DNA of 7,305 bases, from positions 1 to 7,305 of the forward strand of contig JAFZJT010000189.1 in the NCBI GenBank assembly GCA_017553815.1, written 5' to 3'. Under the pieces are notes generated by a model, which saw only the letters and a program-made list of their open reading frames with translations, was not told the origin of the DNA and did no database searches. This stretch comes from Clostridia bacterium (GTDB taxonomy: Bacteria > Bacillota_A > Clostridia > Christensenellales > CAG-138). Positions 1 to 7,305 of this stretch are shown here, one piece after another; the first letter of the stretch is position 1, and each line of letters opens with the position of its first letter. The position numbers and the translations under genes were made by a program.

Positions 1-495
1 ACCGTTCCCGATGGAGCGAACTACACCATCGACTACACCGATTGGAACTGGTATACGGAGGAAGATGGCAACACAATGTCCCACTCCGACGTGTTCGACA
101 ACGAGGAATACGCTTACTATCAGTATTTCGAGATCGTTCCCGCCGAGGGATATGTTTTTGCCGATGAAGTCACCGTTACGATAAACGGTGATCCCGCTTT
201 GGCTGATTTCTTCGGCTGGGATGAGGAATTTGGCTGCTTCTATGTCTACACCATAGACTTCTCCGTTGTGGCGCCCGTGAGCGGCATCCTCGGCGACGTG
301 GATCTGGACGGCGACGTTGACACCGCGGACGCGCTTCTCGCGCTGCGTTACGTGATGGGTCTTGTTGATCTGAATGAAGATCAGCTCGCGCAGGCCGAAG
401 TCACCGGCGATGAGAACGTTTCCGTGGCCGACTGCCTGCTCATCCTCCGCAAGGCGATGGGCGTTATCGACAGCTTCCCCGCAGAGGAACCGTAA
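1..495 (+). CDS. C-terminal part of a secreted dockerin protein (5' end outside window)
   Basis: The frame is open from base 1 to the TAA at 493-495, giving 164 residues. An internal ATG at 76 has no Shine-Dalgarno sequence and lies inside a conserved module, so the gene starts upstream of the window. Residues 1 to about 95 form one copy of the Ig-like module that recurs in the next three genes: TVPDGANY, DWNW, VFDNEEY, EGYVFADE and TINGD. Residues 97-164 are a two-repeat type I dockerin. Its first calcium loop, DVDLDGDVDTAD, is canonical. Its second, EVTGDENVSVAD, is degenerate, with Glu at position 1, Thr at 3 and Glu in place of the usual Gly at 6. The dockerin should bind a cohesin-bearing partner outside the cell, but none is encoded here. 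A terminator follows 32 bases after the stop. The product was presumably exported, although its signal peptide is not in view. Overall function is unknown. Confidence 0.9.
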   Translation, partial: TVPDGANYTIDYTDWNWYTEEDGNTMSHSDVFDNEEYAYYQYFEIVPAEGYVFADEVTVTINGDPALADFFGWDEEFGCFYVYTIDFSVVAPVSGILGDVDLDGDVDTADALLALRYVMGLVDLNEDQLAQAEVTGDENVSVADCLLILRKAMGVIDSFPAEEP

Positions 496-527
496 GCAAT
501 AATCGAATAGGGCGTTTGCCCGAGTAT

Positions 528-560
528 CCGCCGACCCGCAAAAGGGTCGGCGGGTTTTTT
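528..560 (+). terminator. Rho-independent terminator of the first dockerin gene
   Basis: A perfect 10-bp GC-rich stem pairs CCGCCGACCC (528-537) with GGGTCGGCGG (544-553) around the loop GCAAAA. One G and six T residues follow. It separates this gene from the next promoter. Confidence 0.93.
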
Positions 561-636
561 ATCGGCGGGGGAGAGCCGCACATCCCTTTAAATGCCGCTC
601 CCATCCTATATTTCGCAAGAACACCAGTTTTTCGCC

Positions 637-665
637 TTGATTATCGAACGAAAGGCTGATATAAT
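637..665 (+). promoter_or_regulatory. Sigma-A-type promoter of the DUF2436 dockerin gene
   Basis: The -35 box is TTGATT (637-642), the spacer is 17 bp, and the -10 box is TATAAT (660-665), preceded by TG one base upstream (extended -10). Predicted transcription start is near 671-673, about 40 bases before the start codon. The same architecture recurs before the next two genes. Confidence 0.85.
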
Positions 666-672
666 ATAAAAG

Positions 673-688
673 ATGCGCAGAGGCGCAT
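673..688 (+). promoter_or_regulatory. 5'-terminal mRNA stem-loop
   Basis: ATGCGC (673-678) pairs perfectly with GCGCAT (683-688) around the loop AGAG. It starts about 8 bases after the -10 box, so it should lie at the extreme 5' end of the transcript. Hairpins in this place can protect Firmicute mRNAs from 5'-end-dependent decay. That role is inferred here. Confidence 0.5.
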
Positions 689-713
689 ACATTCATTAAA
701 CGGAGGAAAGAAC

Positions 714-2258
714 ATGACCAAGAAGATCATCAGCATCCTTGTTGCGGCGATGATGGCTCTCTGCCTTATTCCCGCCGTCGGCCTTGCCGAGGCAAGGGTC
801 GAAACCCGTCCCGGCTCCGAAAACGAAGTCACGGTCGTTTTGAACGTTCCCGAGGATATCTGGGGGGACGGCACCGGCTATCAGATGCTCCTCGACGCGG
901 ACGCGACCGCGTACGGCACGATCATCCCCGAACCAGGCGTCGCAGGCAAATACACGGGCAACAATTACGACGAGTTTGAGTACATGATCCCCGAGAATGC
1001 GGACTGCTCCGCATCCGCTTCCAACATCGTTATCCTTGGAAGCATGCAGATCAACATCCCCGCGGGCACCTACGACTACATGATCACCAATCCCGACAAC
1101 GCCGGAAGCATCTGGATCGCCTCCGCTTACGGCAACGTCAGCGGCCGCGAGGACGATTTCGTTTTCGAGGCAAACAAGACCTACACCTTCACCCTCTCCC
1201 GGTACGAGACCTATGACCGCGTGGACCTCGAAGTGACCGACGGCGTTGCCGACCCCAGCGTCATTACCACCGTTGCCGTTACGAATTTCGTTGAGCCCGT
1301 TTGGGGCGAGGCTCCCGCTTACGACGTGACCGTTCCGAGCAGCGCGAACTATTCCATCACCTATGCGGATTGGAATTGGGAGGCCGACTTGGACGGCGAA
1401 CAGCTCGTTGACGGCGATATCTTCGATAACGAGGAGTATGGCTATTTCATGTTCTTTATCATCGAGGCGAACGACGGCTACACCTTCTCCGAGGACGTTC
1501 TTATCACCGTGAACGGTCATGCGGATTACGTTGGTCCCAACTACATCGATGCGACCGAGATCATCGTTGCGACCGTTGATTTCTTCGTTTCCGAGCCCAT
1601 CGATCTCGACGATGCGCTGAACGTAGAAGGCGGTACCATCCACTTCGAGTCCGAGGGCGAGTATCCCTGGGTCGGCGTTGAGGATGAGGACGGCACCCTG
1701 TACGCCATGAGCGGCAATGCGGGCATTGGCTCCAGCGATTCCGTGCTCACCGCGGTTGTGACCGTTGAAGAGGGCGCGACCGTTACCTTCGATTTCCAGG
1801 CTTGGGGCGAGGGCACAGGCACCTATTGGGATTACTGCGAATTCGCGGTGGACGGCGAGCGCCGGGGCTACTGGGGCGCGTATCAGAACGAGGAGTGGGA
1901 GACCTTCACCTCCGCTCCCCTGACCGCGGGCGAGCATATCCTCACTTGGACCTATCATAAGGACGGCACCATCAATAAGCCTGGTGACTGCTTCATGATC
2001 GACAACGTTTCGGTTCCCGTGACAGAGCCCACTGACCCCGAGCCCACCGAAGTGCTTGGCGACGTGGATATGGACGGCGACGTTGACACCGCGGACGCGC
2101 TTCTCGCGCTTCGCTATTCGATGGGCCTTATCGAGCTCACCGAGCAGCAGCTTGCGCAGGCCGAGGTTGACGGCGACGGCGAAGTCACCATCGTGGACTC
2201 CCTGCTCATCATCCGCAAGGCGATGGAGCTTATCGAAAGCTTCCCCGCCGAGAACTGA
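714..2258 (+). CDS. Secreted dockerin protein with gingipain-type DUF2436-like domain
   Basis: The product has 514 residues. GGAGG (702-706) lies 7 bases before the ATG. Residues 1-25 are a Sec signal peptide (TKK, hydrophobic core, cleavage near GLA/EA or AEA/RV); C17 is not in a good lipobox. Residues about 38-176 resemble DUF2436 of Porphyromonas gingipains and hemagglutinin A: PEDIWGDGTGYQMLLDAD, YGTIIP, EFEYMIPENAD, IPAGTYDYMITNP, WIA and YTFTL. Residues about 183-295 are the array's Ig-like module (WGEAPAYDVTVP, DWNW, GYTFSED, ITVNG). Residues about 298-434 are a beta-sandwich domain (GGTIHFESEGEYPW, SGNAG, FDFQAWGEGTGTYWD, AGEHILTWTYHKD, FMIDNV) related to one in the last gene. After the linker TEPTDPEPTEV, residues 448-514 are the dockerin; loop 1 is canonical and loop 2 starts with Glu (EVDGDGEVTIVD). 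No enzyme active site is visible. It probably acts outside the cell as a binding protein. The DUF2436 assignment is from recognised motifs, not a profile search. Confidence 0.93.
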   Translation: MTKKIISILVAAMMALCLIPAVGLAEARVETRPGSENEVTVVLNVPEDIWGDGTGYQMLLDADATAYGTIIPEPGVAGKYTGNNYDEFEYMIPENADCSASASNIVILGSMQINIPAGTYDYMITNPDNAGSIWIASAYGNVSGREDDFVFEANKTYTFTLSRYETYDRVDLEVTDGVADPSVITTVAVTNFVEPVWGEAPAYDVTVPSSANYSITYADWNWEADLDGEQLVDGDIFDNEEYGYFMFFIIEANDGYTFSEDVLITVNGHADYVGPNYIDATEIIVATVDFFVSEPIDLDDALNVEGGTIHFESEGEYPWVGVEDEDGTLYAMSGNAGIGSSDSVLTAVVTVEEGATVTFDFQAWGEGTGTYWDYCEFAVDGERRGYWGAYQNEEWETFTSAPLTAGEHILTWTYHKDGTINKPGDCFMIDNVSVPVTEPTDPEPTEVLGDVDMDGDVDTADALLALRYSMGLIELTEQQLAQAEVDGDGEVTIVDSLLIIRKAMELIESFPAEN

Positions 2259-2320
2259 GCTTTCGGCTCGATTTTAACCGAATAAACGGCGCCGCCGACC
2301 CGATTTTGCGGGTCGGCGGC
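2055..2320 (+). repeat. Direct repeat, copy 1: dockerin coding sequence plus terminator
   Basis: This 266-bp block runs from the first dockerin codon through the stop codon to the end of the terminator stem. It aligns without gaps to 4405-4670. I count 13 differences, about 95% identity. Similarity stops just upstream at the dockerin boundary, so dockerin, stop and terminator behave as one duplicated unit. Confidence 0.9.
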
Positions 2321-2329
2321 TTTTCTTTG
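2291..2329 (+). terminator. Rho-independent terminator of the DUF2436 dockerin gene
   Basis: A perfect 12-bp stem pairs GCCGCCGACCCG (2291-2302) with 2309-2320 around a 6-base loop. TTTTCTTTG follows. The stem core CCGCCGACCC is shared with the terminator at 528-560. Confidence 0.93.
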
Positions 2330-2347
2330 TCGAGGAGGAACGATGTA

Positions 2348-2367
2348 ATACTAAACTCTGACTAAAA
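2348..2367 (+). repeat. Left terminal inverted repeat of the MITE-like element
   Basis: The sequence is ATACTAAACTCTGACTAAAA. It is the reverse complement of 2484-2503 except at two positions, both transition-type differences (A/G and C/T). Confidence 0.8.
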
Positions 2368-2502
2368 CAGGACTTCTTGCCGATTGTTTTCCGCCCTGAT
2401 CTCTCTTCGCTCAATGATACTCCATATAGCCCCGCTCCGTTCGACTTCGACAGGAAGAAAAACTCCCCGGCAATTTAGTACGCTTTTAATCAGAGCTTAG
2501 TA
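2349..2502. mobile_element. Putative MITE-like element, about 150 bp, flanked by TA
   Basis: Two 20-base inverted repeats, 2348-2367 and 2484-2503, match at 18 of 20 positions. TA lies at the symmetric edges (2349-2350 and 2501-2502). A TA target-site duplication would fit the IS630/Tc1-mariner style. Inside the ends, complementarity continues imperfectly (TTGCCG near 2377-2382 against CGGCAA at 2468-2473), so the whole element could fold as a long imperfect hairpin. It contains no meaningful ORF. It lies between the preceding terminator and the next promoter. It accounts for most of the gene-free stretch 2259-2610; the flanks 2330-2348 and 2504-2526 hold nothing else I can support. Mobility is inferred from structure alone. 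Confidence 0.6.
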
Positions 2503-2503
2503 T
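2484..2503 (-). repeat. Right terminal inverted repeat of the MITE-like element
   Basis: Read on the minus strand it is ATACTAAGCTCTGATTAAAA, matching the left repeat at 18 of 20 positions. Confidence 0.8.
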
Positions 2504-2526
2504 AAGGATCCGACTCGGGTTTCTGC

Positions 2527-2555
2527 TTGCAAAAGTATACGGGAGCTGATATAAT
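2527..2555 (+). promoter_or_regulatory. Sigma-A-type promoter of the tandem cleaved-adhesin gene
   Basis: The -35 box is TTGCAA (2527-2532), the spacer is 17 bp, and the -10 box is TATAAT (2550-2555) with an upstream TG (TGATATAAT). It begins 23 bases outside the right end of the MITE-like element, so the core promoter is intact. Predicted transcription start is about 2561-2563. Confidence 0.87.
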
Positions 2556-2559
2556 ATAA

Positions 2560-2586
2560 GTACCGCACGCTGTAAACGTGCAGTAC
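2560..2586 (+). promoter_or_regulatory. 5'-terminal mRNA stem-loop
   Basis: GTAC (2560-2563) pairs with GTAC (2583-2586), and GCACG (2565-2569) with CGTGC (2577-2581), leaving one internal C/A mismatch and a 7-base loop. It sits at the predicted 5' end of the mRNA, like the hairpins before the other two complete genes but with a different sequence. Confidence 0.55.
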
Positions 2587-2597
2587 AATATCTCCAC

Positions 2598-2603
2598 AGG
2601 AGG
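2598..2603 (+). promoter_or_regulatory. Ribosome binding site deciding the start at 2611
   Basis: AGGAGG lies 7 bases before ATG 2611. An in-frame GTG at 2578 would add 11 residues, but it lies upstream of this site and inside the leader hairpin, so it is not the start. TCTCC just upstream (2591-2595) could pair with GGAGG (2599-2603) around ACA and partly mask the site. Confidence 0.9.
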
Positions 2604-2610
2604 AAAAACA

Positions 2611-4608
2611 ATGACCAAGAAACTTATCAGCATCTTCGTTGCGGCAATGATGATATTGAGCATCGTTCCCGCAGCGGCATTCGCGCGTGAAGCCGTAAGG
2701 GAGCCCGCCCCCGCGACCGAAAAAGCGCTCGTATCCTGGGATTTTGAGACCGATCCCGCCGAGGACGGCTGGCAGTTCGTGGATGAAGACGGCGACGGCT
2801 ATAACTGGATATGGACGAACGAGACGGCAAGCAGCGGGGATAAATCCATCATGTCCGAATCCTACCGCTCAGGCGGAATATATCTGCAACCGGATAACTG
2901 GGCGATCTCTCCGGAATTCGTTGTTCCCGATGAGGGTGCGGAGCTCAGCTTCTTTTTGAAGAACTATTTGCTTAGCTTTCCCGAGACATTCAGTGTTTAC
3001 GTTATACCCGCCGATGGCGATCCCGACGTGATCGCTGCCAATGAGAGCGTTGCGACCGATACCTGGGTCAAATTGACCTACGATATCTCCGCTCATTCGG
3101 GCGAGACGGTCAGCATTGCGATCCGTCACCACAACTCCTACGATAACTGGAAGTTCTATATCGACGACATCAAGATATCCCTGCCCCGGTCTTCCGACGT
3201 TATTTATGAGGCCAACGTCAGCGGCTTCCCCGAAAAGATCTTTGCCGGAATGACCGTCGGCGAGTTGGCAGAGCAGCTCTATATCACAGGGGACGCGAAT
3301 TATGAGCTCGTATGGACCGGGGCGCTTGACGCCGATGGCTACGATCTTGATTACGATATTGTGTTTGAAGCGGGAGAGACATACTTCCTCTATGGCGATT
3401 TGCACCCTGCAGAAGGCATGACCTTCGATGGGGATGCGTTTTTGACGGCAAACGGCGGTGCGATCGAAACCTACCCCATGTACACATACGTTATGGAAGG
3501 CGGAACATATGCCGGTGTTTTCGTGCGATACGATTGCATCGAAGCGCCAGCGGCAGGCTTCTACTTCGAGACCGATCCCGCCGAAGAGGGATGGGTATTC
3601 GTTGACAGCGACGGCGACGGCAACAACTGGTATTGGCTTTACTATGGCGTGAATGCAACGATGAATATGGCGTATGAAGGCAACGGCCTTCTGTCCTCCG
3701 CTTCGTACAGCGGTTCCGCACTTACCCCCGATAACTGGGCGATCTCCCCCGAGTTCGAGGTTCCCGCAGTTGACGGCACGGTCGGTATGTATATCGGTGC
3801 GCAGGATCCGAATTGGCACCAGGAGCATTTCGCTGTTTACGTCGGCATCGGCACGGACGTTGGGAGCTACACCATGCTCTCCGAGGAGCTCGTTGCAGAG
3901 GCTGCCTATACCTATTACGAATTCGATCTTTCCGAGTATGCGGGCGAGACGATAAGCATTGCGATCCGCCACTTCAACGTAACCGATATGTTCCGCATCA
4001 ACCTCGATCAGGTGGAGGTGTTCGGTTCCGATGAGGAGACGCCCATCGATCCAATCATCTCCACTGTTGAGATCCTCGGATTCGATTTGCCCGTTTTCGG
4101 CGGCAATCCCGATCACGACGTTTCCGTGCCAGAGGGCGCGCATTATACCCTGACCAAGGTCGAGTGGCACAACATGGGCAAGGGAATCATCGATCCCGAT
4201 TACGAGTTTGTTGCGGGCTCCTACTACGTAGTATTCGAGTTCGCGCCCGAGGAGGGCTATGAGTTCGCTCCCGTTTACGAGACCACCATGCTTATCAACG
4301 GCAGCAGCGAGCTTGTGGGCGCAATGCTCTTCTGCTATTCCTACCCGACGCTCTACCACATGGAGACAGCCAATCTCGTCGTTGAGGAGCCGACGATCGG
4401 CACTCTCGGCGACGTAGATATGGACGGCGACGTTGACACCGCGGATGCGCTTCTTGCGCTGCGCTATTCGATGGGTCTTATCGAGCTCACCGAGGAGCAG
4501 CTTGTGCAGACCGAGGTTGACGGCGACGGCGAAGTCACCATCGTGGACTCCCTGCTCATCATCCGCAAGGCGCTGGAGCTTATCGAAAGCTTTCCCGCCG
4601 AGAACTGA
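2611..4608 (+). CDS. Secreted dockerin protein with two cleaved-adhesin + Ig-like units
   Basis: The product has 665 residues from ATG 2611. Residues 1-25 are a Sec signal peptide (TKKLISIFVAAMM, cleavage near AFA/RE). Residues about 39-193 are a cleaved-adhesin / choice-of-anchor J domain: WDFETDPAEDGW, the probable calcium motif DEDGDGYNW, PDNWAISPEF and SIAIRHHN ending in IDDI. Residues about 194-315 are a divergent Ig-like module (EGMTFDGDAFLTANGG). Residues about 316-474 are a second cleaved-adhesin domain (FETDPAEEGW, DSDGDGNNW, PDNWAISPEF, SIAIRHFNVTDMF, LDQVEVFG). Residues about 482-594 are a second Ig-like module (VPEGAHY, EEGYEFA, INGS). Residues 599-665 are a dockerin nearly identical to that of the preceding gene, with Glu opening loop 2. 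This order implies an internal duplication of a two-domain unit. Cleaved-adhesin domains are best known from gingipains, where they take part in protein or haem binding and adhesion. The ligand here is unknown and no enzyme site is seen. Confidence 0.94.
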   Translation: MTKKLISIFVAAMMILSIVPAAAFAREAVREPAPATEKALVSWDFETDPAEDGWQFVDEDGDGYNWIWTNETASSGDKSIMSESYRSGGIYLQPDNWAISPEFVVPDEGAELSFFLKNYLLSFPETFSVYVIPADGDPDVIAANESVATDTWVKLTYDISAHSGETVSIAIRHHNSYDNWKFYIDDIKISLPRSSDVIYEANVSGFPEKIFAGMTVGELAEQLYITGDANYELVWTGALDADGYDLDYDIVFEAGETYFLYGDLHPAEGMTFDGDAFLTANGGAIETYPMYTYVMEGGTYAGVFVRYDCIEAPAAGFYFETDPAEEGWVFVDSDGDGNNWYWLYYGVNATMNMAYEGNGLLSSASYSGSALTPDNWAISPEFEVPAVDGTVGMYIGAQDPNWHQEHFAVYVGIGTDVGSYTMLSEELVAEAAYTYYEFDLSEYAGETISIAIRHFNVTDMFRINLDQVEVFGSDEETPIDPIISTVEILGFDLPVFGGNPDHDVSVPEGAHYTLTKVEWHNMGKGIIDPDYEFVAGSYYVVFEFAPEEGYEFAPVYETTMLINGSSELVGAMLFCYSYPTLYHMETANLVVEEPTIGTLGDVDMDGDVDTADALLALRYSMGLIELTEEQLVQTEVDGDGEVTIVDSLLIIRKALELIESFPAEN

Positions 4609-4670
4609 GCTTTCGGCTCGATTTTAACCGAATAAACGGCGCTGCCGACCCGATTTTGCGGATCGGCGGC
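4405..4670 (+). repeat. Direct repeat, copy 2: dockerin coding sequence plus terminator
   Basis: This is the gap-free counterpart of 2055-2320 at an offset of 2350 bases. Of 13 differences, 11 are in coding sequence (7 silent; replacements Q/E, A/V, A/T, M/L) and 2 are in the terminator stem. The bases between stop codon and terminator are identical. Confidence 0.9.
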
Positions 4671-4679
4671 GTTTTTTTT
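4641..4679 (+). terminator. Rho-independent terminator of the tandem cleaved-adhesin gene
   Basis: The stem pairs 4641-4652 with 4659-4670 around ATTTTG, followed by G and eight T residues. Compared with the duplicate at 2291-2329 it carries one G-T wobble (4643/4668) and one C/A mismatch (4649/4662), but should still terminate. Confidence 0.9.
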
Positions 4680-4680
4680 C

Positions 4681-4753
4681 GCTAAAAAATCCTTTTCGGA
4701 ATTGAGTTTATGCAAAAAATGAAATAATATATTGGAAAAATAGCAATTTTTGC
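4681..4753 (+). promoter_or_regulatory. AT-rich upstream region with possible second promoter
   Basis: The region is A/T-rich, unlike the surrounding GC-rich DNA, and abuts the -35 box at 4754, so it could act as an UP element. It also holds TTGAGT (4702-4707), a 17-bp gap and TAATAT (4725-4730), a plausible weaker tandem promoter. GCAAAAA (4712-4718) and TTTTTGC (4747-4753) form a 7-bp inverted repeat. None of these functions is certain. Confidence 0.4.
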
Positions 4754-4782
4754 TTGCAACTATATATGGACAATGATATAAT
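4754..4782 (+). promoter_or_regulatory. Sigma-A-type promoter of the three-Ig-module dockerin gene
   Basis: The -35 box is TTGCAA (4754-4759), the spacer is 17 bp, and the -10 box is TATAAT (4777-4782) with an extended-10 TG. The -35 hexamer, spacing and TGATATAATATA block match the promoter at 2527-2555. Confidence 0.88.
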
Positions 4783-4791
4783 ATAGCCAAC

Positions 4792-4810
4792 GCATATCGT
4801 TTGTATGTGC
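4792..4810 (+). promoter_or_regulatory. 5'-terminal mRNA stem-loop
   Basis: GCATAT (4792-4797) pairs with ATGTGC (4805-4810), with one wobble pair and a 7-base loop. It begins 10 bases after the -10 box, as in the two preceding genes, but its sequence differs. Confidence 0.45.
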
Positions 4811-4825
4811 ATGAAAAATGTCTAC

Positions 4826-4831
4826 AGGAGG
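4826..4831 (+). promoter_or_regulatory. Ribosome binding site deciding the start at 4842
   Basis: AGGAGG lies 10 bases before ATG 4842. An in-frame ATG at 4818 precedes this site and would put eight non-signal residues before the MKK signal-peptide start, so 4842 is the better start. The context CTACAGGAGGAAA resembles CCACAGGAGGAAA at 2594-2606. Confidence 0.88.
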
Positions 4832-4841
4832 AAACAAGCAA

Positions 4842-7259
4842 ATGAAGAAGCTTTTGAGTCTTATCGTTGCGGCGGTTTTGGTGCTTTCCATGCTGCCGAT
4901 GGGCGCGATGGCGGAAGCGGCGCAGAAGGCGCCGAGCGCTGCGCGCACCGAAACGATAACCGGGCTCGATGAGGGCGTTAAGGCTCCCGAGCCGCCCACA
5001 TATCGTGAAAGCCCGCTCACGGCAGCGCTGAACGCCCCGTATTCCTACGTTCACATCACTTTCACGAGCGAGGGCGATTATACGTGGGACGTGCTTGAGG
5101 AGGGCGAGCGTTTATACGCCCAGAGCGGCAACGCCGGCGTTGCAGACAGCTCGTCTACCGTTACGGCGACCTTCACCATAGACGCCGACTGCTTCCTCAC
5201 CTTTGATTATAAGGCATGGGGCGAGGGGGGAATCAACACTATCTATGATAAGTGCATCTTTACGCTCGACGGAACCGCGGTATTCACCAAGGGGCAAGAG
5301 CAGAATGATTGGACGACCTATTACGTTGAGGAAGCCCTTCCCGCGGGCGAGCATACGATCGAGTTCACCTACTCTAAGGATTTTAGCGTCGATAAGCCCG
5401 GCGACTATTTCGCGATCGATGAAGTGAAGCTTGAGGCTGCTTCAAACATCACGCCGACTCTGCCCCCGACCCCGACTCCCACTCCCACTCCCGAGCCTGA
5501 TCTTATCGTGGGCTGCTACTTCGAGAGCAGGGATGAGCTTGACTTTTGGTCCCATCGGGATGTGGACGAAGACGGTCATTGGTGGGATTGGTTTTATGAT
5601 GATCCCAAAAAGCAGGCTTATGAGGGTGCCGGCTTAGCGGCCTCCGATTCGGTTCTGATCGAAGGTCTAAACGCCACCCCCCTTGAGCCTGATAACTACT
5701 TGATAGGCGGTCCCGTTCAGCTTCTGGACTGTTGCAACGCGCTGACCTTCTATGCGGCGGGTGGATACGAGCATTTCGAGGTACTTATCGGTACTACGAA
5801 CAGAATCGCCGATATGAGCGTTCTTATAGAGGAGACCGTTACAGCGGGGAACGACTACGTTCAGTACTCCGCAAATCTCGATGACTATGCGGGCGAGGAG
5901 ATCTATATAGCCTTCCGCCACTTCGGCGACTTCGGCTGGAACGCGCTGCGCCTGGATCAGGTCGAGTTCTGGGGCTATGATGAACCCCAAGACGAGGTTA
6001 TCTCCGCCATCGAGATACTCGATTTCGTTGAACCTGCGTGGGGCGCGCATCCGTACTTCGGCGTGACAGTGCCCGATGACGCACATTATTCGATCGAAGC
6101 CGCCGATTGGCATTGGTACACCGATAATGACGGCGGCAACTTGCAGCAGGCGGATATGTTCGTCAGCGAAGAAGCCCTCTACTATATGAGCATCTATATA
6201 GTTCCCGATGAGGGCTATACCTTCTCGGAGGAGACCGCAGTCACGATCAACGGCGATGATGCGTTTGTCGATACCGTATACAGCTCCTGGCATGAAGATG
6301 AAGGGCGCTTCTACGTATATACCACGGACTTCGCCGTTGAGTTTGAGACCATCGTGATTGACTCCGTCAGTATCATCATGCTGACCGAGCCAGCTTACGG
6401 CGCGGCGCCCGACTATGATGCCGAGCCCGAACAGTCGGATGAACCGTACTTTGTAGAATCCATAGAGTGGTACTGCGGCGAAGAGCTTATGCAGGATGGC
6501 GACGTGTTCGACGATCCGAATGCCGAATACTATGCGGTGATCACGCTCGGAGCAGACGAGGGCTATGTGTTTGCCGATGTAGTCAATGCCCTTGTGCGCG
6601 GCAGTGATACCTATATTATCGATGCTTACCCCATCGAGGGCGGCACGATGTTCGTTATCGAATGGGGCTATTTCACCGTTGAGGAGCCGCTCGAGCTGAT
6701 TGACACCATCGAGATACTCGATTTCATCGTTCCCGAGTGGGGCGCAGCGGCCGACTACGGTATGCACGTTCCCGAAGGCGCAAACTACAGAATAGAGAGT
6801 GCATATTGGGAGATCCGCCGCGATGGCAGTTGGGCAGACGTCCCCGAAGGAGAGCTCTTTGATGACGAAAGCGCTATATACCGCTTTGAGGTCCTGATCC
6901 TTCCAAACGAGGGTTATAAGTTCGCCGATGAAGCGGTCTGCCTTATCAACGGAGGAACCGAGCTTCTTGAGCGCACCTATCCCCCCGCAGGCGGCGATCC
7001 GAGCGAAAGTATAGTGTTTATGACGATTGAATTCACCGTTGAAAATCCCATTCTCTGGGGCGATGCGGACGGCGACGGCGACGTGGAAACCGCGGACGCG
7101 CTGCTGCTCATGCGCTACCTCATCGGTCTTGACACCGTTGATGAAGAGAACCTTGCGATCTGCGACGTCAACGGCGACGGCGACGTGAGTCTTGCGGATG
7201 CTCTGCTCATCATGCGCAAGGCAATGGGCACCATCGAAGCGTTCCCAATTGAGAACTGA
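4842..7259 (+). CDS. Large secreted dockerin protein: beta-sandwich, cleaved-adhesin-like, three Ig-like modules
   Basis: The product has 805 residues from ATG 4842. Residues 1-24 are a Sec signal peptide (MKKLLSLIVAAVLVLSMLP, cleavage near AMA/EA). Residues about 59-198 are a beta-sandwich domain like that of the DUF2436 gene (SEGDYTWDV, QSGNAGV, FDYKAWGEG, AGEHTIEFTYSKD, GDYFAIDEV). A Pro-Thr linker spans 204-219. Residues about 224-380 are a divergent cleaved-adhesin-like domain (CYFESRDELDFW, PDNYLIGGPVQL, IYIAFRHFGDFGW, LDQVEFWGYD); its calcium motif is reduced to DVDEDGHWW. Three Ig-like modules follow at about 386-505, 506-616 and 619-735; modules 1 and 3 open with the nearly identical IEILDF...P.WGA. 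Residues 739-805 are a dockerin with both loops canonical (DADGDGDVETAD, DVNGDGDVSLAD), unlike the other three. No catalytic residues are recognisable. It is probably an extracellular binding or scaffold-attached protein. Confidence 0.94.
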   Translation: MKKLLSLIVAAVLVLSMLPMGAMAEAAQKAPSAARTETITGLDEGVKAPEPPTYRESPLTAALNAPYSYVHITFTSEGDYTWDVLEEGERLYAQSGNAGVADSSSTVTATFTIDADCFLTFDYKAWGEGGINTIYDKCIFTLDGTAVFTKGQEQNDWTTYYVEEALPAGEHTIEFTYSKDFSVDKPGDYFAIDEVKLEAASNITPTLPPTPTPTPTPEPDLIVGCYFESRDELDFWSHRDVDEDGHWWDWFYDDPKKQAYEGAGLAASDSVLIEGLNATPLEPDNYLIGGPVQLLDCCNALTFYAAGGYEHFEVLIGTTNRIADMSVLIEETVTAGNDYVQYSANLDDYAGEEIYIAFRHFGDFGWNALRLDQVEFWGYDEPQDEVISAIEILDFVEPAWGAHPYFGVTVPDDAHYSIEAADWHWYTDNDGGNLQQADMFVSEEALYYMSIYIVPDEGYTFSEETAVTINGDDAFVDTVYSSWHEDEGRFYVYTTDFAVEFETIVIDSVSIIMLTEPAYGAAPDYDAEPEQSDEPYFVESIEWYCGEELMQDGDVFDDPNAEYYAVITLGADEGYVFADVVNALVRGSDTYIIDAYPIEGGTMFVIEWGYFTVEEPLELIDTIEILDFIVPEWGAAADYGMHVPEGANYRIESAYWEIRRDGSWADVPEGELFDDESAIYRFEVLILPNEGYKFADEAVCLINGGTELLERTYPPAGGDPSESIVFMTIEFTVENPILWGDADGDGDVETADALLLMRYLIGLDTVDEENLAICDVNGDGDVSLADALLIMRKAMGTIEAFPIEN
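5465..5494 (+). repeat. Hexanucleotide tandem repeat encoding the Pro-Thr linker
   Basis: About five degenerate 6-bp units (CCCGAC, CCCGAC, TCCCAC, TCCCAC, TCCCGA) encode alternating Pro-Thr. Such linkers are flexible and protease-resistant in secreted multi-domain proteins. Gain or loss of a unit changes linker length by two residues without shifting the frame. Confidence 0.75.
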
Positions 7260-7305
7260 TACTATGCCGCAAAAAGGGCAGTCTGAGATCGCTTGAGCGA
7301 TCATC
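7260..7305 (+). other. Downstream flank with small hairpins, window edge
   Basis: GATCGC (7287-7292) pairs with GCGATC (7297-7302) around TTGA. An upstream TGCC/GGCA pairing (7265-7268 with 7277-7280) surrounds GCAAAAAG, resembling the GCAAAA loop of the terminator at 528-560. No T run is seen before the window ends, so a terminator cannot be claimed. Confidence 0.35.

Follow-up and report, generated by a model that had tools for sequence, protein, structure and literature searches.

A tandem array of dockerin proteins with gingipain-type modules in a Clostridia bacterium

The stretch of DNA considered in this study (the window) comprises 7,305 nucleotides from a Clostridia bacterium (GTDB lineage Bacteria; Bacillota_A; Clostridia; Christensenellales; CAG-138), positions 1 to 7,305 of the forward strand of contig JAFZJT010000189.1 in GenBank assembly GCA_017553815.1. 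It holds four open reading frames (ORFs), all on the + strand, at 1-495, 714-2258, 2611-4608, and 4842-7259, which I will refer to as g1 through g4. The starts of g3 and g4 were placed at a later ATG with a ribosome-binding site ahead of it. All four proteins contain a Dockerin_1 domain that exceeds the Pfam gathering cut-off of 22.9 bits (24.8, 32.1, 26.9, and 39.8 bits for g1 to g4), bearing out a preliminary description of the window as four neighbouring same-strand genes that end in a dockerin. Their products are probably secreted and serve, without catalytic activity of their own, as the binding subunits of a cellulosome-like assembly built from cohesins and dockerins; the host would be an uncultured gut Clostridium of the Christensenellales type.

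Apart from the dockerin, only two Pfam families exceed their cut-offs in the window: DUF2436, found in g2 (1e-45), and Cleaved_Adhesin, found as two stretches in g3 (1.3e-38) and one in g4 (2.5e-9). The latter modules, designated J here, go by the name choice_anch_J in NCBIfam in both genes. Two further modules lack a Pfam family over cut-off: X, a jelly roll found in g2 and g4, and Y, an Ig-like module found in all four genes. The first gene is a fragment whose 5' end is lost at the window edge. Its 3' part (164 amino acids visible) consists of a Y module, in the approximately 95 residues visible ahead of the dockerin, then the dockerin (amino acids 97-149; 289-447 in the window) and a tail, FPAEEP. 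When used as a query, the N-terminal part of g1 hits the places that the other Y modules hit too. The product of g2 (514 amino acids) runs from a signal peptide-like start through DUF2436, a gingipain/hemagglutinin module (816-1229), the Ig-like beta repeat Y (1248-1589), and X, a MAM/CBM61-like jelly roll (1602-2027), to the dockerin (2055-2219). That of g3 (665 amino acids) has the order J-Y-J-Y-dockerin after a similar start, with the first J at 2725-3186 (choice_anch_J over amino acids 43-189, 5.3e-41 for the protein), the second at 3535-4026 (Cleaved_Adhesin over amino acids 319-470), and the dockerin at 4405-4569. That of g4 (805 amino acids), again with a signal peptide-like start, has the order X-J-Y-Y-Y-dockerin, with X at 4992-5447, J at 5517-5975, the three Y modules at 5988-7046, and the dockerin at 7059-7217. 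The Y modules of g2 and g4 and the X module of g4 were placed by profile matches and AlphaFold models. The putative signal peptides of g2 to g4, read from the sequence by eye, have a basic start, a hydrophobic core, and an AxA-like end.

In the AlphaFold models (mean pLDDT 84.4 for g2 and 81.7 for g4), the body is rich in beta structure and the dockerin end is helical, and structure comparison found a match to the dockerin fold. By the same means, the fold of X resembles CBM61, a galactan binder, and also eukaryotic MAM domains. A second look (VIA) was taken up mainly by X (residues 295-438) and barely covered the Y modules. DUF2436, a structure of which is the subject of PMC11448926 (judging by its available text), is 49% and 46% identical to structure 9isp in two comparisons. 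The second J of g3 matches chains 3m1h (3.3e-15) and 4itc (4.8e-15) of Kgp, and comparison of the g4 J model with Kgp K1 (4itc) gave a TM(target) of 0.77. No catalytic family exceeds cut-off in any of the four proteins, by Pfam or by NCBIfam, nor are families of the C25 protease or of the tail associated with the type IX secretion system (T9SS) among the matches. The earlier claim that the proteins carry only adhesin-like, Ig-like, and beta-sandwich modules stands for g2 to g4, and for g1 it extends to the part that is visible.

Relatives of the window proteins were sought by a profile search of genome_contigs with alignment A1, which gave 25 loci, many of them from metagenome-assembled genomes (MAGs) of Clostridia from rumen, omasum, and abomasum. 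Christensenella or Christensenellaceae appears in the titles of some of the loci, Christensenellales is the name given to two related proteins, and five loci (L014-L017, L020) bear Bacteroidota titles. The genomes of the 14 relatives outside the Bacteroidota were searched for cohesins, dockerins, and sortases, and all 14 have all three, with cohesins over cut-off and dockerins at 25 to 83 places in each genome. The array had been described as lacking a visible scaffold. That is correct for the window itself and, given the cohesins of the relatives, probably reflects no more than its size.

The nearest genome, G001 (RGIG6112, a MAG from sheep omasum), has an orthologue of g2 that is 67% identical over residues 1-514. 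It contains 83 dockerin places in 82 ORFs and 21 cohesin places (20 over cut-off) in 7 ORFs. The largest of the cohesin ORFs (2014 amino acids) has 10 cohesin stretches and one X module, and another (1040 amino acids) has three cohesin and two Cleaved Adhesin stretches. Three scaffoldins of G001 (these two and one of 606 amino acids with two cohesins) have a C-terminal tail in which T/A-P-P-T-G is followed by a hydrophobic stretch and then basic residues; by its shape this is a sortase-type signal, if not a strict LPXTG. Both cohesins and candidate sortase-anchored proteins, which the preliminary description had pointed to, are found in relatives, some of whose cohesin proteins combine a sortase-type tail with the same adhesin modules. 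In G001, the gene for the adhesin-bearing scaffoldin lies directly behind X-DOC, X-DUF2436-DOC, and J-bearing DOC genes (DOC standing for dockerin), and that of its counterpart in G002 does likewise. Adhesin-scaffoldins are also common in public data, where 879 hits were obtained among 7989 scored candidates. By hand count, among the 120 of the 879 that were listed, 115 combine a cohesin with Cleaved_Adhesin and 93 have DUF2436 as well.

Several other cohesin proteins were encountered among the relatives. Two ORFs have X, J or Y modules beside their cohesins: L010:5384-9718, with four cohesins and a hydrophobic-basic end as in the scaffoldins, and L024:7502-11539, with one cohesin and one dockerin. 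Two more are possible wall-linked adaptor scaffoldins, as judged from their domains: L123:1336-5835 (contig C34 of G001), one of the seven cohesin ORFs of that genome, with two dockerins, Phage_lysozyme2, and Amidase_6, and L231:84-3158 (contig C45 of G014), with a dockerin, a cohesin, CHAP, and PG_binding. The five Bacteroidota MAGs, titled Prevotellaceae, Muribaculaceae, and Porphyromonadaceae, have 84 to 153 Dockerin_1 places each (at least that many in four of the five), some of them on X-DOC proteins. The available text of PMC12997984 counts 78 Bacteroidetes MAGs with cohesin and dockerin and flags them as needing further study.

The dockerins of the window are not all alike. All four have two Ca-loops, with E at position 1 of loop 2 in g1 to g3, and these three fall with eight dockerins of G001 adhesin proteins in an 11-member clade (support 0.91). 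A single dockerin type for all four genes was ruled out, since the 13 window-type dockerins span 85 of the 87 tips of a midpoint-rooted tree. None of the 13 has an identical recognition pair in both dockerin repeats, as compared to 13 of 74 others. What g1 to g4 do have in common is a tail, FP(A/V/I)E, right after the dockerin, which is found in 9 of 82 dockerin ORFs in G001, 2 of 50 in G002, and none of 51 in G014. The nine ORFs of G001 with this tail sit in three clusters of three, and every one of them contains DUF2436 and/or Cleaved Adhesin. Tails reading FPVE, FPIE, and FPAD occur at ORF ends in loci L007, L011, L012, and L013.

The cargo carried by dockerins was inventoried with Pfam on the 183 dockerin ORFs of three of the 14 genomes: 82 in G001, 50 in G002, and 51 in G014. 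Of the 54 dockerin places of G014, the three below the Pfam cut-off were dropped, and two such places were kept in G002. A few of the ORFs are truncated where their contig stops (for example, C60 of G001, L231 of G014, and L197 of G002). The scan of G001 took in hits with E up to 1e-4 and gave complete family lists. It found the dockerin again in 68 of the 82 ORFs and so can lose true short domains; the corresponding figures are 38 of 50 in G002 and 45 of 51 in G014. S8 peptidases are present on 8, 5, and 6 of the dockerin ORFs in G001, G002, and G014, respectively, LRR_4 on 12, 7, and 13, and the redoxin-like AhpC-TSA on 7, 7, and 2. Among the families found once in G001 are CotH, CAP, Cna_B, Ricin-B, Cthe_2159, and CHAP. 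In an alignment of short dockerin proteins from G001 (A4), 7 of 23 match Redoxin/AhpC-TSA, and the consensus has a WCxxC motif. Two S8 ORFs of G001, L229:462-4553 (1364 amino acids) and L230:315-5078 (1588 amino acids), join S8, PA, fn3_5, and a mid-protein dockerin to a C-terminal Cleaved Adhesin (4.7e-19 and 2e-18, respectively); the dockerin of the second passes the Pfam dockerin search and not the whole-ORF scan at 1e-4. A further S8-dockerin relative, P0049, has X-like modules.

Such cargo is what one might expect of a proteolysome, an assembly that mainly digests feed, microbial, or host protein, in which the window proteins would hold the substrate, S8 proteases would cut it, and redoxins would open its disulfides. 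The two fusions that end in Cleaved Adhesin make this more likely, being the most direct hint that protease and adhesin act together in this lineage, and the recurrence of S8 and AhpC-TSA in all three genomes and the X-like modules of P0049 point in the same direction. However, no protease family is listed for the majority of the dockerin ORFs, the thioredoxin-like proteins are no more than putative reductases, and the window has no protease. I regard digestion as the main function of the assembly as a live possibility, but one that I lean against.

The inventory speaks against the idea that the window proteins are accessory subunits of an ordinary cellulosome, whose carbohydrate-binding modules (CBMs) would serve the breakdown of plant fibre by glycoside hydrolases (GHs) encoded outside the view. 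No GH family was found on the 82 dockerin ORFs of G001 (E up to 1e-4). There was none on the 50 of G002 among the 25 of 31 families listed (the remaining six should be no better than 2.7e-5, judging by the ordering of E-values), and none on the 51 of G014 among the families listed there (25 of 45 at 1e-4, 25 of 29 at 1e-7, and 19 of 19 at 1e-12), where a GH outside the list would be weaker than about 4e-10. Six dockerin ORFs scanned whole (two from G001, three from G014, and one from G002) had no GH either. Dockerin-borne mucin GHs were likewise not found in these scans of the window and the 183 ORFs. The match of the X fold to CBM61, the origin of many relatives in rumen, omasum, and abomasum, and the presence of GH5 in 5 of the 14 genomes all speak for plant fibre. 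Nevertheless, GH5 is found in none of the six genomes G001-G006 and GH9 in none of the 14, a local profile made from the dockerins of the window and G001 found no dockerin in 11 stretches covering all 14 GH5 places, and no Pfam CBM is present on any of the 7 G001 ORFs with cohesins, of which one is truncated at a contig end and one carries X. Service to an ordinary cellulosome is thus an unlikely role.

It is similarly improbable that the proteins act as a glue between cells, the dockerin proteins of one cell binding the cohesins or surfaces of another to form aggregates. The outnumbering of cohesin by dockerin places in G001 (83 vs 21) and the anchor-type tails of the scaffoldins would suit such a role, but known cellulosomes usually have more dockerins than cohesins, according to the available text on Ruminococcus flavefaciens (PMC2930009). 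That the dockerins are orphans, Ca-stabilised C-terminal caps that meet no cohesin, I find very hard to believe, given the cohesins in all 14 relatives, the scaffoldin genes adjoining dockerin-adhesin genes in G001 and G002, and the retention of both Ca-loops (save for the E at position 1 of the second loop in g1 to g3).

The reading I prefer is that of secreted, non-catalytic binding subunits. According to it, each protein would be exported and would present a different string of DUF2436, Cleaved Adhesin, jelly-roll, and Ig-like modules, while its C-terminal dockerin would plug into the cohesins of sortase-anchored scaffoldins. In place of glycoside hydrolases, the other dockerin proteins of the assembly would comprise S8 proteases, LRR proteins, and redoxin-like proteins. 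The outcome would be an exchangeable set of surface adhesins that works like the gingipain protease-adhesin complex, joined by cohesin-dockerin pairs. The modules, the dockerins, and the separate promoter-like sites (described below) can be recognised in the window's sequence, and the scaffoldins, anchor-type tails, sortases, and cargo in those of its relatives. From these I infer that the dockerins pair with cohesins and that a scaffold is present in the window's own genome. The modules may bind feed protein, plant glycan, or a host surface and may cooperate with proteases. The preliminary description had suggested much the same, a varied family of binding subunits outside the cell that could decorate a cohesin scaffold or the cell surface, in a dockerin assembly that may not be cellulolytic, and it gains support from the lack of a catalytic family in the window and the presence of cohesins in every relative.

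Several considerations weigh against this reading. The evidence for scaffoldins comes from the genomes of relatives, not from the window's own. The adhesin function ascribed to DUF2436 and Cleaved Adhesin rests on relatives in Porphyromonas gingivalis. The cargo inventory covers three genomes of 14 and rests on Pfam, there are weak families in G014 and G002 beyond those listed, and a few ORFs are cut short at the end of a contig. A few dockerin ORFs match Cthe_2159, Ricin-B, CBM_6, CBM60, or the RGI_lyase beta-sheet, some of them weakly; with these CBM-type matches and the CBM61-like X, sugar binding is possible. Finally, since the dockerin of g4, a subtype unlike those of g1 to g3, falls outside their clade in the dockerin tree, the four genes may not share one cohesin.

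From their surroundings, g2 to g4 look like single-gene transcription units, because each has its own promoter-like site and terminator-like sites stand behind g1, g2, and g3. The promoter-like sites, all of the extended -10 type and on the + strand, are at 637-665 for g2 (TTGATT-17-TATAAT, with TG before), 2527-2555 for g3 (TTGCAA AAG TATAC N6 TGATATAAT), and 4754-4782 for g4 (TTGCAA CTA TATAT N6 TGATATAAT). The terminator-like sites, on the same strand, are at 526-555, 2291-2320 (a 12-pair stem and a T-run), and 4641-4670 (overlapping a weaker site at 4650-4666). An operon reading was rejected in view of this arrangement. The window contains 6 promoter-like sites, as against 5.0 expected by chance, and 14 terminator-like sites, as against 6.1. 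As the promoter count is close to chance, the case for separate units rests on the position, spacing, and conservation of the sites.

The 3' cassette of g2 (dockerin, stop, and terminator; 2055-2328) is 95% identical over 274 nt to the corresponding end of g3 (4405-4678), a repeat that includes the terminator-like site of the latter, while the module orders upstream differ. For this reason the array seems to evolve through swaps of N-terminal modules before a recurring dockerin-terminator end, or through conversion of that end. The array is not an accident of a single contig, since runs of three to seven same-strand dockerin genes also occur in relatives. Locus L208 of G002 has six such genes, locus L006 of G004 has seven on the same strand (including one beside a possible split piece), and three regions of G001 (L096, L119, and L001/L098) have three each. 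Between g2 and g3 lie two inverted arms of 27 nt (2348-2374 and 2477-2503), 81% complementary and 102 nt apart, which resemble a small non-coding insertion element. No copy of this element was found by blastn in 234 fetched loci, nor in a plasmid collection. The window has no match to Rfam RNA elements and no tandem repeats. A phage or viral origin was rejected: 49 stretches of viral_contigs matched a pattern, and none encodes a relative.

The promoter type appears to be shared beyond the window. An extended -10 promoter precedes all three of the window genes g2 to g4 and 7 of 9 window-type dockerin ORFs of G001, as compared to 22 of the 73 other dockerin ORFs of that genome (Fisher p 0.008 for the latter contrast, with start codons set mechanically). 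The sequence TATAATATA is found before 5 of the 9 and 2 of the 73 (Fisher p 9e-5). A more demanding pattern, TTGMAANNNTATAYN6TGNTATAAT, was drawn from g3, g4, and three genes of G001. It matches exactly at 7 places across the 14 genomes (about 31 Mb), and the reversed control at none. All 7 are 44-62 nt upstream of an ORF with a signal peptide-like start and an X or J module. Three of these, in G001, are circular, as the pattern was drawn from them; the other four, in G002, G003, G004, and G005, come from genomes that did not contribute to it. The fetched piece with the match in G005 ends inside the gene, so that any dockerin end is outside the view. Some of the conservation could be due to common descent of the regions upstream.

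Taking the argument one step further, and more tentatively, I propose that Christensenellales-type gut bacteria may have a genome-wide, GH-free cohesin-dockerin system that forms a wall-anchored adhesin-protease-redox complex, parallel to the gingipain-adhesin complex of Bacteroidota, with exchangeable adhesin subunits whose genes lie in arrays and share a single type of promoter; my confidence in this falls somewhat short of even. If it is true, then the cohesin-dockerin assembly would be a more general scheme for surface display in gut Clostridia, carrying adhesins and proteases, and the gingipain-type modules familiar from a periodontal pathogen would also be common in other bacteria of the gut, attached there by a different system. 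The genes, scaffoldins, and promoter named here offer a direct way to test a non-cellulosomal role of dockerins.

Compared with type I cellulosomes (Clostridium/Acetivibrio thermocellum, R. flavefaciens), all four window dockerins are of the same kind, having Dockerin_1 and two Ca-loops, and a multi-cohesin scaffoldin is seen in the relatives (cohesins in 14 of 14, and the 10-cohesin ORF of G001), as is its surface anchor (the G001 tails and the sortases). The differences are that no dockerin-borne GH for the plant cell wall is found in the window or among the families listed for the 183 ORFs of G001, G002, and G014, that the scaffoldins of G001 have no Pfam CBM, and that gingipain-type adhesins occur here both as cargo and on scaffoldins. 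Cellulosomes are not the only cohesin-dockerin systems on record. For R. flavefaciens, the available text of PMC2930009 describes dockerin ORFs arranged head to tail, as well as dockerins on LRR proteins and peptidases, and proposes a possible part for group 4 dockerins in structuring the cell surface. The mucinolysome of Limousia (PMC12997984, in its available text, which also counts 4333 human gut MAGs with both cohesin and dockerin) is likewise cellulosome-like and belongs to a Firmicutes gut bacterium, with dockerin-borne peptidases and a scaffoldin whose LPxTG sortase anchor may be likened to the tails seen here. It is defined by dockerin-borne mucin GHs, of which there are none among those listed for the window and three relatives. 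The scaffoldin-containing bacteria of PMC11557425, from what is available of that source, have cohesins, up to tens of dockerin proteins, and few dockerin-GHs: three of the four such genomes have a single dockerin-GH of plant-fibre type. The survey demanded at least one dockerin-GH and would pass over a genome with the inventory given here for G001. Since surveys for cellulosome-like systems usually go by dockerin-GHs, systems like the present one would be omitted by design (PMC11557425, in the same text).

The modules recall those of RgpA, Kgp, and HagA of P. gingivalis, where DUF2436 and Cleaved Adhesin form strings of binding modules; DUF2436 is found in g2 and Cleaved_Adhesin in g3 and g4. 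The adhesin modules of P. gingivalis are part of C25 protease polyproteins. The two S8 proteases of G001 with a Cleaved Adhesin domain resemble this arrangement, but the modules described here are mostly on separate dockerin proteins, and the window has no protease family and no fusion to a C25 protease with a T9SS tail. No report of gingipain-type adhesins with dockerins and cohesins was found among the listed titles and starts of abstracts (subscription journals not covered), nor in the available text of the papers cited above. If the GH-free reading is true, two display systems with no relation to each other would have taken up the same kind of adhesin module.

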